Below, in pieces: positions 31,556 to 41,315 of a stretch of 42,006 nt of DNA. Within the stretch, counting starts at the first letter, position 1. Each line of letters opens with the position of its first letter. The position numbers and the translations under genes were made by a program. Source of the DNA: an uncultured Geobacteraceae bacterium (GTDB lineage: Bacteria; Desulfobacterota; Desulfuromonadia; Geobacterales; CAIOGM01); the NCBI GenBank assembly GCA_903902345.1, contig CAIUUR010000102.1, positions 1 through 42,006 on the forward strand. Reading direction: 5' to 3'. The notes beneath the pieces were generated by a model that was not told the origin of the DNA, searched no databases, and saw only the letters and a program-made list of their open reading frames with translations.

Positions 31556-31825
31556 AACTCGGTCATGACGGCCCGGTTCTCATCCCGCGCCTTTGTCGCG
31601 GCCGCAGTACGTACCGGATCGCTCAGGAGGTCGAAGCCGAAGGCACGCCTGTTGCGCCAGTCAACGGAGCTACTCTCTTTGCCCGGCATGGCGCACCATC
31701 CAAAGAAGAAAAGTGTCGGGTCGGAGAACTGTTTCTGGATAAATCCTAACTGTCTGCTAAGATTATACCAGAACTACGGCTCTCCGTGGGGAGGGGTGAA
31801 GGGTAGGTTTAAAACGGAGGGTGTC

Positions 31826-32722
31826 ATGCGGATTCTGATCGTGGACGATGTCCCGGACAACATTAGGCTCCTCAGCAGAATGCTGGAGAATGACGGTTAC
31901 CAGTTATCCTCTGCCGTGAACGGCCGTCAGGCCCTGAAACTTGCGGGGAGCTGCGCACCGGATCTGATTCTTCTGGACATCATGATGCCGGAGATGGACG
32001 GCTATGAAGTCTGCGCGACGCTGAAGGTCGATCCGCTCCTGAGCTCAATCCCGGTCGTTTTTCTCACCGCACTGGCGGACGCCGAACATGAGGGACGTGG
32101 TCTCGCCCTGGGAGCGGTGGACTTCATCACCAAACCGTTCAACGAGGCCCTCGTCAGACTCCGCGTCAGAACCCATGTGGAAATCAAGCGACAGCATGAT
32201 CTCCTGACCAGACTCTCCCGTCTTGACCCCCTGACTCAGATACCCAACCGTCGAGCCTTCGATGAACGTCTGGACGGAGAGTGGCGACGCGCCATCCGCT
32301 CCGATGAATCGCTTGCCGCAGCGATGATCGACATAGATCACTTCAAGGAGTATAACGACACCCATGGTCATCCAGCCGGTGACGACTGCCTCCGGCAGGT
32401 GGCCACGGCACTCTCCGAGAAGCTGGAACGGGCAGGTGATTTCATTGCCCGCTATGGGGGTGAGGAGTTCGTCTGCGTGGTCAACGGGGAGGACGGCCAG
32501 GAGGTCTGTCTCTCCATGGAGAAACTCCGGAGGGGGATCGAGGCGCTTCAGATACCCCACGGTATGTCACCGGTTTCCCCCTGGGTCACGGTGAGTATCG
32601 GCGCCGCGCTCTGTCATCCGACGAAAGATACCCCCCCCACCGGCCTCGTGGCGGCGGCTGACGTTCAGCTCTTCCGGGCCAAAAAGCTCGGCCGGAACAG
32701 GGTCTGCCTCGACTCGGTCTAA
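31826..32722 (+). CDS. response regulator diguanylate cyclase (REC-GGDEF)
   Basis: REC MRILIVDDVPDNIRLL...LILLDIMMPEMDGYEV...TKPF; GGDEF IDIDHFKEYNDTHGHPAGDDCL...RAGDFIARYGGEEF with RxxD I-site. Confidence 0.94.
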   Translation: MRILIVDDVPDNIRLLSRMLENDGYQLSSAVNGRQALKLAGSCAPDLILLDIMMPEMDGYEVCATLKVDPLLSSIPVVFLTALADAEHEGRGLALGAVDFITKPFNEALVRLRVRTHVEIKRQHDLLTRLSRLDPLTQIPNRRAFDERLDGEWRRAIRSDESLAAAMIDIDHFKEYNDTHGHPAGDDCLRQVATALSEKLERAGDFIARYGGEEFVCVVNGEDGQEVCLSMEKLRRGIEALQIPHGMSPVSPWVTVSIGAALCHPTKDTPPTGLVAAADVQLFRAKKLGRNRVCLDSV

Positions 32723-37267: not shown

Positions 37268-38557
37268 ATGGATACCACAACGATGACGCTGGAAGAGAAG
37301 ATCAGGATACTGGCGGAGAGCGCCCGGTATGACGTCTCCTGCTCCTCCAGCGGCAGCAGCCGGAGCAACACCAAGGGAGGAATAGGCAACGCCGCATCCA
37401 GCGGTATCTGTCACAGCTGGTCGGCAGATGGCCACTGCGTCTCGCTCCTCAAGATCCTCCTCACCAATATCTGCATTTACGACTGCGCCTACTGCCTCAA
37501 TCGCCGAAGCAACGACATCCGCCGCGTCGCCCTGACGCCGGAGGAGGTGGCGGAGCTTACTATCAACTTCTACCGCCGCAACTACATCGAAGGACTCTTT
37601 CTCAGCACCGGCGTGGTGCGAAACCCCGACTACACCATGGAACTCCTCATCCGTACGGTGCGCACCCTCCGGGAAGAGCACCGATTCAACGGCTATATTC
37701 ACCTGAAACTGGTGCCGGGAGCCGATCCGCTTCTGGTGGAGCAAGCAGGGAGAATGGTGGATCGGGTCAGCATCAACCTGGAACTCCCCACCCGGGGTAG
37801 TCTGGCCCTCCTGGCGCCGGACAAGAGTCGGGAGGCGATCCTTCTTCCCATGCGTCAGGTAAGCGGACTCATTACCGCCCGCCGGGACCAGGGGCGAAAC
37901 GCCCCCCCCTTCGTACCCGCCGGTCAGAGCACCCAAGTCATCATCGGCGCAACCCCGGACAGCGATTTTCGGATCATGACGATTTCGGAACAGCTCTACC
38001 AGCGGATGGGGCTCAAGCGGGTCTACTACTCCGCCTACGTTCCGGTGGCCGGCGACCCACGACTTCCGGCCCTCATCGCCACGCCGCTTCTGGCTCGGGA
38101 GCACCGACTGTACCAGGCGGACTGGCTTCTCCGCTTCTACGGCTTCAGGGCGGACGAACTGCTGGACGCCGGCTCCCCCGACCTGGATCAGGAGCTGGAC
38201 CCCAAGACGGGTTGGGCCCTGCGCCATCGGCAACTCTTTCCCGTGGAGGTGAATCGAGCCGAGTACGAGGTGCTGCTCCGGGTCCCCGGAATCGGGGTCC
38301 GTTCGGCAAAACGGATCGTTCGGGCCCGCCGGGTGCAGCGCCTCCGGCGGGAGGAGCTGGCGAAGCTGGGGGTGGTTATGAAGCGGGCCCGTTATTTTCT
38401 CACCGCGGACGGAGCAGGGTCAGAGGGAACGGATCTTTCCCCGGAACGGTTGAAGGAACTCCTTCTCCCGGGAAAAAAACGACGGAGTGATTCCGGGCAG
38501 CTATCACTCTTTCCCCCGGACCCCCGTGATCTCAGCGGCATCACGGGGGAGCTCTGA
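37268..38557 (+). CDS. putative DNA modification/repair radical SAM protein with C-terminal helix-hairpin-helix
   Basis: CIYDCAYC (CxxxCxxC); HhH LLRVPGIGVRSAKRIVRARR; N-terminal ARYDVSCSSSGSSRSNTKGG...GICHSWSADGHCVSLLKILLTN resembles the TIGR03916-type family. Confidence 0.9.
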   Translation: MDTTTMTLEEKIRILAESARYDVSCSSSGSSRSNTKGGIGNAASSGICHSWSADGHCVSLLKILLTNICIYDCAYCLNRRSNDIRRVALTPEEVAELTINFYRRNYIEGLFLSTGVVRNPDYTMELLIRTVRTLREEHRFNGYIHLKLVPGADPLLVEQAGRMVDRVSINLELPTRGSLALLAPDKSREAILLPMRQVSGLITARRDQGRNAPPFVPAGQSTQVIIGATPDSDFRIMTISEQLYQRMGLKRVYYSAYVPVAGDPRLPALIATPLLAREHRLYQADWLLRFYGFRADELLDAGSPDLDQELDPKTGWALRHRQLFPVEVNRAEYEVLLRVPGIGVRSAKRIVRARRVQRLRREELAKLGVVMKRARYFLTADGAGSEGTDLSPERLKELLLPGKKRRSDSGQLSLFPPDPRDLSGITGEL

Positions 38558-39294
38558 TGGCGGTCTGGCGCTATGACGGCACCTTTTCCGGCTTTCTCAC
38601 CCTCTGCGCAGAGCTGGTCACCCGGAGGGAGGAACCGGAGGGGATCATCTTCGGGGAATCCCTCCAGGCAGAGTTGTTCCGATCGACGGTCGATGTGGAA
38701 AACAATGATGCTCGGGCGGAAAAAATGCTGGGAGCCATAGCCGCCCGAATCTCTCCCGAAAGCTGCCGTACCCTTTGGTGTGCATTCCAGTCCCGGAAAG
38801 AGGGGGTGGAACTCCTCCTCTGGCGCTACCTACAGTTCGGGCGGGTGACCGGTGCGAAGTGCGACCGATTTCTGGCCCACCCCGCCGTGGCGCCGGTTCA
38901 CAAACTGGCACTCTCCGTGGGGCACGAAGCGCACACCGTCAGGGGAATCGTCCGGTTTCAGGAAACCGCGGGAGGACAGTGGTACGCGGCAGTGGAACCG
39001 GCCTACCAGATTCTGGAACTGATCGCACCGCACTTCGCTGCCCGCTGCGCTGATATGAACTGGCTCATCCACGACGTGCGGCGGAACCTGGCGGTGGCAT
39101 GGAACGGGTCGGAGTGGCGCCTCACCACCTTCGACGCCCAGGGAGTACCTCCGTTGTCGGCAAACGAAGCAACCTGGTCGGCGCTCTGGAGGAGCTATTT
39201 TGCTGCCGTCGCCATCCCCCAGCGGGCCAATGGTCGGCTTCAGCAACAACACCTCCCCAAACGGTTCCGAAAATATCTCACGGAATCGGTGTGA
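38557..39294 (+). CDS. DUF4130 (TIGR03915-type) putative DNA metabolism protein
   Basis: WRYDGTFSGFLTLC...RCADMNWLIHDVRRNLAVAWNGSEW...LWRSYFAAVAIPQRANGRLQQQHLPKRFRKYL; start directly follows the radical SAM stop. Confidence 0.9.
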   Translation: MAVWRYDGTFSGFLTLCAELVTRREEPEGIIFGESLQAELFRSTVDVENNDARAEKMLGAIAARISPESCRTLWCAFQSRKEGVELLLWRYLQFGRVTGAKCDRFLAHPAVAPVHKLALSVGHEAHTVRGIVRFQETAGGQWYAAVEPAYQILELIAPHFAARCADMNWLIHDVRRNLAVAWNGSEWRLTTFDAQGVPPLSANEATWSALWRSYFAAVAIPQRANGRLQQQHLPKRFRKYLTESV

Positions 39295-39422: not shown

Positions 39423-40718
39423 ATGTCTCTTCTGAAACGAGCGACCCTGGTCCAGAAGCTCATTCTGAGCTATGCGGCCATGACCGTCTTCACCGTCGCC
39501 GCCCTGGGAAACGCCATCATGGGGCTCTACGCCCTCAACCGGGTCGCCGACTCCATCGTCTCCAGCGACCTGGTGGCAATCACCACGGCGGGAAAGTTGC
39601 GTGATTCGCTTCTGGCCCAGGAGGGATACCTCCGCAAATTCATCATCCTCAACGGTTCGGAATTCAGGACCCTCTTCGACAATCGTGACCAGGAGATCCG
39701 GAAGTCACTTGACCTGCTCAAGGGTAGCGGCCAGAACCGGCAACTGCCGGAGGTATACCGGCAGTACCGTGACTTCCGTGACGGAGCCGGTATCCTCTTC
39801 CAGGGGGGGAATGTCGACCAGAAGGCCGTGACCACGGCCGCTGACCGGACTCTGGCGGCGTTGGACGGCATCATCGCCGACCGGAACCGGCAGCTGACTG
39901 AAAAGATGGCCGAAGCCGACCGGAGCCGGATGGAGACGGTCCGCCTGACGCTGCTCCTCTCCTTTGCCGGCTTTATCTTCGCCATCAGTGTCGCCGGCTT
40001 CTTCGCTTTCAATATTTATCGAAGTATCACCAAGTTGAAGAAGGCGACCCATCGGATCGCTGCGGGGGATTTCGACTTCGACCCCCAGATTCCCTCCTCC
40101 GACGAGTTCGGAGAACTGGCCCACGATTTCACCAGCATGGCGGCCAAGCTGAAGCTTCTGGAGGAGGTCAGCCTGGACGCAAGCCCCCTGACCCGACTCC
40201 CCGGCAATATCGCCATCGAACGGTCGCTGAACCGGCGTCTCAAGGGAGGGGAATCTTTTGCCCTCTGCTATGTTGATCTGGACAATTTCAAGTCCTACAA
40301 TGATCGTTACGGCTATGTTCCGGCCAGCGACATCATCAAGATGACCGGCGAGATCATCTACGACGCGGTGAAGAAACATGGTGACGACAGCGATTTCGTC
40401 GGCCACATCGGCGGCGACGATTTCGTCATGATCATCGGTTCGGACAAGATCACCGCCGTCTGTGACACGGTCATCCAGGAGTTCACCACGGGGATCAAGG
40501 GGTATTACAGCCAGGAGGACCTGGCTGCGGGCTCCATCAACGGAGTGGACCGCTACGGGGTGCCACGGGAATTCCCCATCATGACCATCTCCATCGCGGC
40601 CCTGGATTGCCGAAAAGGTGATTACGCCTCGGCCGCCGACATCGCCCGGGCTGCCGCCGAGATCAAGGACCAGGTGAAAGTCGCTCCCGGCAGCAACTAT
40701 TTCATTCATCGACGGTGA
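39423..40718 (+). CDS. membrane HAMP-GGDEF protein, Hypr-like dinucleotide cyclase candidate
   Basis: N-terminal TM plus periplasmic helical sensor, second TM, HAMP, GGDEF with DLDNFKSYNDRYGYVPASDII and GHIGGDDFVMI. Confidence 0.9.
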   Translation: MSLLKRATLVQKLILSYAAMTVFTVAALGNAIMGLYALNRVADSIVSSDLVAITTAGKLRDSLLAQEGYLRKFIILNGSEFRTLFDNRDQEIRKSLDLLKGSGQNRQLPEVYRQYRDFRDGAGILFQGGNVDQKAVTTAADRTLAALDGIIADRNRQLTEKMAEADRSRMETVRLTLLLSFAGFIFAISVAGFFAFNIYRSITKLKKATHRIAAGDFDFDPQIPSSDEFGELAHDFTSMAAKLKLLEEVSLDASPLTRLPGNIAIERSLNRRLKGGESFALCYVDLDNFKSYNDRYGYVPASDIIKMTGEIIYDAVKKHGDDSDFVGHIGGDDFVMIIGSDKITAVCDTVIQEFTTGIKGYYSQEDLAAGSINGVDRYGVPREFPIMTISIAALDCRKGDYASAADIARAAAEIKDQVKVAPGSNYFIHRR

Positions 40719-40721
40719 CCC

Positions 40722-41315
40722 GTGAATAGAATTTTCTCACCCCTGCTCATCCTCTTTGCCTTGGCTTCCGGGGGGTGTGCCACCCTGAGTACGTTTTTCG
40801 GTCAGGCGCCGGAGCCACCCGCCGCGCCGGAACCCCACAAGCCTCCCCCCCCTCCCCGCGTGACACCACTCCCCCCCCCAAAGAGTCCGGCACTCCAGCT
40901 GGTCCGGGCACGAGAGCTGATGCAGAGCGGCAAGGATGAAGCTGCGCGGGAGCTGCTCCAGAAGATAAGCTCTGAGAAAAGCATCCCCGGCGTCACCGAC
41001 GAGGCGCTGTTTCACCAAGGACTCCTGAGCCTGAGAAACGAACATGAGACCGGCGGCTATCCCCAGACCCGCCAGCTCCTGGAGCGACTCATCCACGACT
41101 ACCCGGGAAGCGTCTGGGCCGTTCAGGCCGCCCCGCTGAATGATCTCCTCATGGCGTACTGGCAATCCGAGATCTCTCTCATCAAAGCACGGCGTCAGAT
41201 CAAGGGGCTGGAGAAATCAAACAACTCTCTCACCAGGGAAAACAAGGAGATGCACCTCAATATCGAAAAGCTGAAGAGTCTGGAGCAGGAACTGGGGCAG
41301 AAAAGCAGGAGATAA
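40722..41315 (+). CDS. Pro-rich lipoprotein with TPR-like and coiled-coil segments
   Basis: Lipobox ALASGGC; Pro-rich linker; ARELMQSGKDEAARELLQKI...YPQTRQLLERLIHDYPGS; C-terminal coiled coil; GTG start right after the cyclase. Confidence 0.8.
   Translation: MNRIFSPLLILFALASGGCATLSTFFGQAPEPPAAPEPHKPPPPPRVTPLPPPKSPALQLVRARELMQSGKDEAARELLQKISSEKSIPGVTDEALFHQGLLSLRNEHETGGYPQTRQLLERLIHDYPGSVWAVQAAPLNDLLMAYWQSEISLIKARRQIKGLEKSNNSLTRENKEMHLNIEKLKSLEQELGQKSRR

Follow-up and report, generated by a model that had tools for sequence, protein, structure and literature searches.

The question raised by this locus is which cyclic dinucleotide is made by the membrane GGDEF-type protein encoded at 39423..40718 (+) of the window, i.e., of the whole 42,006-nucleotide stretch of DNA that was analysed. 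In Geobacter, cGAMP is the signal that governs the cytochrome genes of metal respiration; its main synthase is considered to be GacA. By analogy with GSU1937 of G. sulfurreducens, we consider it probable that the protein studied here (P0001) is an inner-membrane, HAMP-coupled cyclase of the GGDEF fold, which accepts GTP and ATP and makes 3',3'-cGAMP together with some c-di-GMP.

The open reading frame is intact, starts with ATG and encodes a HAMP-GGDDF membrane protein of the GSU1937 type with 431 amino acids (AlphaFold2 mean pLDDT 86). Residues 1-199 (39423..40019, +) form a 4HB_MCP_1-like helical part with two transmembrane segments, presumed to be a periplasmic sensor; this assignment uses a sub-threshold Pfam match to 4HB_MCP_1 at residues 8-96, the AlphaFold2 model, in which this part is all-helical, and the hydrophobic stretches, from which the topology was deduced. 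A HAMP domain follows at residues 200-244 (40020..40154, +; PF00672, 40.5 bits), and the GGDEF-type catalytic domain occupies residues 255-431 (40185..40715, +) according to PF00990, hhalign and Foldseek. The match to PF00990 spans residues 255-342 with 44.8 bits and is ungapped on profile positions 5-92; the domain is divergent, and the comparison of the GacA family with it reached 97% in hhalign. The model has the GGDEF fold, with Foldseek matches to WspR, PleD, IsPadC (5llx) and GacA (6d9m). The second GGDEF gene of the window, which the first-pass annotation had called canonical, is indeed so, with GHPAGD and GGEEF present; the start given for it, 31826, is a plausible internal start of an open reading frame that extends over 31565-32722.

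The catalytic domain of P0001 contains the stretch DLDNFKSYNDRYGYVPASDII. The base-selectivity position (PleD D344, GmGacA Ser348; the equivalent GacA serine is numbered Ser348/350) is occupied by Ser302 (40326..40328, +), assigned by hhalign and conservation. The annotation had placed this serine at the base-contacting aspartate and had named an alignment with the serine elsewhere as the outcome that would count against its reading; in the profile-profile alignment with 12 GacA orthologs, Ser302 falls exactly on the Hypr serine, without a gap (GYVPAS opposite GHLVGS), and the residue beside it is Ala where Hypr has Gly. The annotation also read correctly the GGDDF signature at residues 330-334 (40410..40424, +), where Asp333 stands in place of the catalytic-base Glu (role from PMC6456294), and the loss of the RxxD inhibitory site, by sequence a degenerate I-site that reads DDSD at residues 321-324 (40383..40394, +). 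No arginine was found at the RxxD position among the listed residues of the Ser-type Geobacterales homologs. The cross-dimer position, canonically Arg and Tyr304 in GacA, is Asn262 (40206..40208, +) in the Pfam alignment, its role being taken from PMC6456294.

Other active-site residues are retained. The DLDNFK segment (40275..40292, +) supplies the metal-binding Asp285 and the phosphate-binding Lys290, invariant in 75/75 homologs; Asn293 (40299..40301, +), which corresponds to PleD N335 and GacA Asn339 in the base contact on the sugar face, is Asn in 68/75; and Lys419 (40677..40679, +), aligned by hhalign with PleD K442, is kept in 73/73 where this position is covered. The equivalent of PleD R366 is His, and Ser424 lies on that of PleD R446 in the profile-profile alignment with the GacA family. 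The equivalents of the base Glu, R366 and R446 are altered throughout the P0001 family.

Homologs of P0001 were found in 80 named genome records. A long close match to P0001 is present in 49 of the 58 whole genomes of the order, with a second, weaker match in two of the 49. Ser302, Asn262, Asp285, Lys290 and Asp294 are invariant in all 75 Geobacterales-type homologs; GGDD is likewise invariant in the 74 that cover the motif (one row is truncated), the signature being GGDDY in two and GGDDF otherwise. Across the 75 homologs, the mean entropy is 0.07 bits at thirteen catalytic and binding positions, compared with 1.02 over the domain as a whole; of 100,000 position sets drawn at random, none had a mean as low. 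Since the serine is universal, GGDDF nearly so and the active-site entropy low, we do not regard the pattern as a matter of chance; near-invariant active-site residues are what an active enzyme would show. The patterns of the locus search included DNFKSYND, which biases that stretch, although not position 302; the whole-genome homolog search is free of this bias. In seven of the 75 Ser-type homologs (L110, L112, L113, L118-L121) the serine is kept and the Asn293 equivalent is G, S or T, which may point to another change in specificity or to relaxed recognition. Such a loss would be unexpected with a conserved mode of base recognition, and it counts against the explanation that we prefer.

GGDDF is common to the Geobacterales, Desulfobacterota, Nitrospirota, Clostridial and other relatives. 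The selectivity position is Ser in three Nitrospirota and Asp in the Clostridial and other relatives. Relatives of the Desulfobacterota type (L062-L073), also HAMP-GGDDF proteins, have Asn there. On a quick tree the label of this residue needs three changes, with Ser in two places. A single origin of the serine for GacA and the P0001 family was considered and found to be unsupported by the tree, in which the outgroup consists of two long branches and the polarity is uncertain.

Judged by its sequence, P0001 is the ortholog of GSU1937. The published deletion primers for GSU1937 translate to VQKLIAS and STPGSNY, and we treat the two proteins as orthologs because these peptides match both termini of the P0001 family (VQKLI.SY and PGSNY). 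The primer oligonucleotides themselves had no match in any fetched locus; the case for orthology is therefore built on the translated primers and on the published description, which P0001 shares in combining TM-HAMP, the Ser348 equivalent and GGDDF. G007, a Geobacter-type genome, yielded two Ser GGDEF proteins, one GacA-like and the other orthologous to P0001. This corresponds to the published account, where GSU1937, a membrane HAMP protein with GGDDF, is the sole Ser GGDEF protein of G. sulfurreducens besides GacA (Tan et al. 2022, PMC8835794).

The same work reports that the cGAMP reporter falls by more than 90% in a gacA/GSU1937 double deletion, and that one of four GacA-GGDDF fusions gave both cGAMP and c-di-GMP biosensor signals, which were lost in the GADDF mutant; no activity was seen in E. 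coli with the other three GSU1937 fusions or with the full-length protein (PMC8835794). GSU1937, the second cGAMP synthase of G. sulfurreducens, was called the first active GGDDF enzyme (PMC8835794). A structural explanation has been given of how Ser, together with the Asp at the third position of the signature, can bind either GTP or ATP; the fourth signature residue is the cross-dimer base (PMC6456294). The proposal of a sensor-coupled cyclase for cGAMP or mixed dinucleotides is supported by the GSU1937 data, with the correction that the activity is mixed and not cleanly cGAMP instead of c-di-GMP. Likewise, the GacA protein (GSU1658) invoked as the precedent does share the serine, but the closest precedent is GSU1937. 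By analogy, P0001 would have the same output as the latter, cGAMP and c-di-GMP.

The assignment of P0001 to the Hypr enzymes is complicated by its signature, which the first-pass annotation did not weigh. Proteins with Ser or Thr at position 348 were reported in 2019 to carry GGDE[F/Y] exclusively (PMC6456294). P0001 has the serine (Ser302); GGDDF lies outside GGDE[F/Y], GSU1937 being the published exception; and the cross-dimer residue is non-Arg (Asn262), which is weakly diagnostic because Asp-type relatives have Asn at this position too. Compared with the canonical diguanylate cyclases, P0001 retains the fold and the metal and phosphate residues and lacks both the Asp at PleD D344 and GG[D/E]EF. 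With GacA (GSU1658, PDB 6d9m; PMC6456294) it shares the serine that contacts the Watson-Crick edge, the third-position Asp and a non-Arg cross-dimer residue. However, GacA carries a REC domain, GGDE[F/Y], a cross-dimer Tyr and a functional I-site, whereas P0001 sits in the membrane and has GGDDF, Asn262 and no RxxD; the two are distantly related within the GGDEF fold. With GSU1937 the likeness extends to the serine at 348, GGDDF, the membrane HAMP architecture and the primer-encoded termini, and the difference lies in the host: that of GSU1937 also has GacA, whereas P0001 comes from a different, uncultured Geobacterales species in which no GacA was found. The reading of P0001 is essentially right and not new, the enzyme type being already published; the newer part is the near-constant pairing with a lipoprotein and the possible status of sole synthase in this species group, both described below.

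A cyclase that is active and makes mainly c-di-GMP, with the serine tolerated and not selected for ATP use, would fit several observations: the active GSU1937 fusion gave a c-di-GMP signal comparable to that of GacA and a weaker cGAMP signal (PMC8835794), the canonical GSU3350 remained a pure diguanylate cyclase after the Asp-to-Ser substitution (PMC6456294), and GGDDF relatives of the Asn and Asp types exist. We nonetheless hold this to be unlikely. When GSU1937 is deleted, the cGAMP reporter signal drops by about 25% with fumarate and 70% with Fe(III) citrate (PMC8835794), and the serine has no exception among the 75 homologs. A non-Arg cross-dimer residue also favours cGAMP in the tested Hypr enzymes (PMC6456294), although here the Asp-type relatives share the Asn.

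It is still less probable that P0001 is a catalytically degenerate GGDEF protein, which binds a nucleotide or dinucleotide and serves as a receptor or scaffold. GGDDF domains elsewhere are usually inactive (e.g., PA3258, cited in PMC8835794), and the family-wide changes at the base Glu, R366 and R446 equivalents, with the loss of the binding arginine of RxxD, point in the same direction; yet the GGDDF domain of GSU1937 is active in the fusion and inactivated by the change to GADDF (PMC8835794), the metal, phosphate and signature residues are invariant, and P0001 has no EAL or HD-GYP partner domain. A shift to another specificity (c-di-AMP or another purine pair), or one that varies between lineages, might be read from the Asn293 replacements and from the Asn at the selectivity position in Desulfobacterota, but is most improbable given the cGAMP- and c-di-GMP-sensor signals of GSU1937 (PMC8835794), the Asn293 kept in P0001 and the A20 riboswitches present.

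Under the reading as a GSU1937-type cyclase, the P0001 dimer would most likely take both GTP and ATP and yield 3',3'-cGAMP with some c-di-GMP. To judge by GacA, Ser302 would form a hydrogen bond with either purine and Asn293 would contact the base edge, while Asp332 would hold Mg2+ and Asp333 would act as the cross-dimer base. Unlike GacA, P0001 is probably not braked by c-di-GMP, because the RxxD site is lost. The cGAMP would act through A20-type GEMM-I riboswitches that precede genes for c-type cytochromes and other exported proteins.

Such riboswitches are present in the source genome (G000), where nine GEMM-I matches were found, five with A and four with G just before P2. This nucleotide is numbered A14 in 4YAZ, a structure of the cGAMP riboswitch (PMC6274999), and aligns with nt 20 of Vc2; A at nt 20 is cGAMP-selective, and A20G switches a Geobacter riboswitch to c-di-GMP (PMC6456294). 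The types were assigned by covariance-model alignment, a regex scan having been dropped as too noisy. The A-type elements in G000, one of which scores below the Rfam cut-off, precede CxxCH proteins, an NHL-like exported protein and a short exported protein. One of the CxxCH proteins has nine motifs in its visible 437 aa, and another, with two motifs, follows a tandem A-type pair.

A GacA query recovered orthologs across most of the order, the congener G001 among them, and none in G000, G002 and G003 (the source genome and two of its three congeners). In G002, only 151 bp separate comEC from hisS, the two genes that flank gacA in G007, and this interval holds no gacA; in G003, hisS has no gacA upstream. 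The G000 assembly lacks hisS, and its comEC contig runs into different sequence at the end, so the absence of gacA there is likely but not proven, and the claim rests mainly on G002 and G003. The place after comEC that gacA takes in G007 is occupied in G000 (C261, locus L300) by what appears by eye to be a toxin-antitoxin-like pair and a transposase-like fragment near the contig end.

P0001 is the only GGDEF protein found in G000 with Ser or Thr at the selectivity site, and no other Ser GGDEF protein was found in G000, G002 or G003. The motif NDxxG[HY]xx[GA][S/T] matched only the GSU1937 ortholog in G002 and G003; in G000 it had, besides P0001, one match (on C199) outside the GGDEF matches, which we take to be due to chance. 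G002 and G003 keep two A-type riboswitches each. Because GacA was not found in these three genomes and the A20-type GEMM-I riboswitches are kept, the GGDDF enzyme is the only recognised candidate cGAMP synthase in them.

That A20 riboswitches strictly accompany either GacA or GSU1937 was rejected as a rule, because three genomes (G009, G033, G052) have A-type elements without full-length copies of either. Other NDxxGHxxGS matches exist in G009 and G033, and G052 has a Thr-type match only. Because G052 has A-type elements without a GacA or GSU1937 homolog, the riboswitch type alone does not single out the GGDDF enzyme. Matches to NDRxGHxAGT (G007:C1:36920, G024:C191:57154 and G052:C91:19465) are further putative Thr-type promiscuous GGDEF candidates.

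The gene that begins with GTG 3 bp after the cyclase stop codon (40722..41315, +) encodes a TPR lipoprotein of 197 aa that ends in a long helix (model pLDDT 86.5). Its lipobox cysteine is Cys19 (ASGGC-A; 40776..40778, +), Gly-Cys being invariant in 30 aligned lipoproteins, and by the E. coli rule the Ala at +2 suggests sorting to the outer membrane. Its modelled structure has a proline-rich linker, four helices of the TPR type and a C-terminal helix of 66 residues; TPR_6 matched in 26 of the 30 members. In 73 of 78 Ser-type loci a homolog is the next gene downstream, in the same orientation; a few genomes enter this count twice, and three of the five exceptions are truncated or at contig ends. 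Most of the lipoprotein genes overlap the cyclase gene or begin no more than 25 bp from it. By eye, lipobox-like short proteins follow most HAMP-GGDDF genes of Nitrospirota and Desulfobacterota, and none follows the Asp-type HAMP-GGDDF genes of Clostridia. The paper on GSU1937 (PMC8835794) does not mention the downstream lipoprotein. On the upstream side, at 37268-39294 (+), a radical SAM protein (TIGR03916) and a TIGR03915/DUF4130 protein form a putative DNA repair pair, which occurs at this place only in the same genus.

The lipoprotein is likely a functional partner of the cyclase. A comparable arrangement is known in YfiN (TpbB/DgcN) and YfiB (PMC3375315), a membrane HAMP-GGDEF cyclase genetically linked to an outer-membrane lipoprotein, and YfiN is also the best NCBIfam match of P0001 (50 bits versus a cut-off of 325). 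The YfiBNR system differs in that YfiN has a periplasmic PAS domain and YfiB is of the OmpA type, whereas Pfam shows 4HB_MCP_1-like and TPR regions here, with a long helix in the lipoprotein; no YfiR-like gene was seen adjacent to the P0001 locus. By analogy with YfiB-YfiN (PMC3375315), it is plausible that the lipoprotein carries an envelope signal to the cyclase. The input to P0001 would probably come from the periplasmic helical domain, possibly together with the co-encoded TPR lipoprotein.

More tentatively, the HAMP-GGDDF cyclase and the TPR lipoprotein could be an ancient two-gene envelope-sensing module of Desulfobacterota and Nitrospirota, in which the change of specificity in Geobacterales (Ser) lets the module alone supply cGAMP to the cytochrome riboswitches of lineages that lack GacA; we find this possible, somewhat short of an even chance. 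From these comparisons, the GGDDF enzyme would be a membrane-coupled source of cGAMP that is widely conserved in Geobacterales. Some species of the order may rely on it alone for cGAMP, and the co-encoded lipoprotein could carry extracellular input to it.
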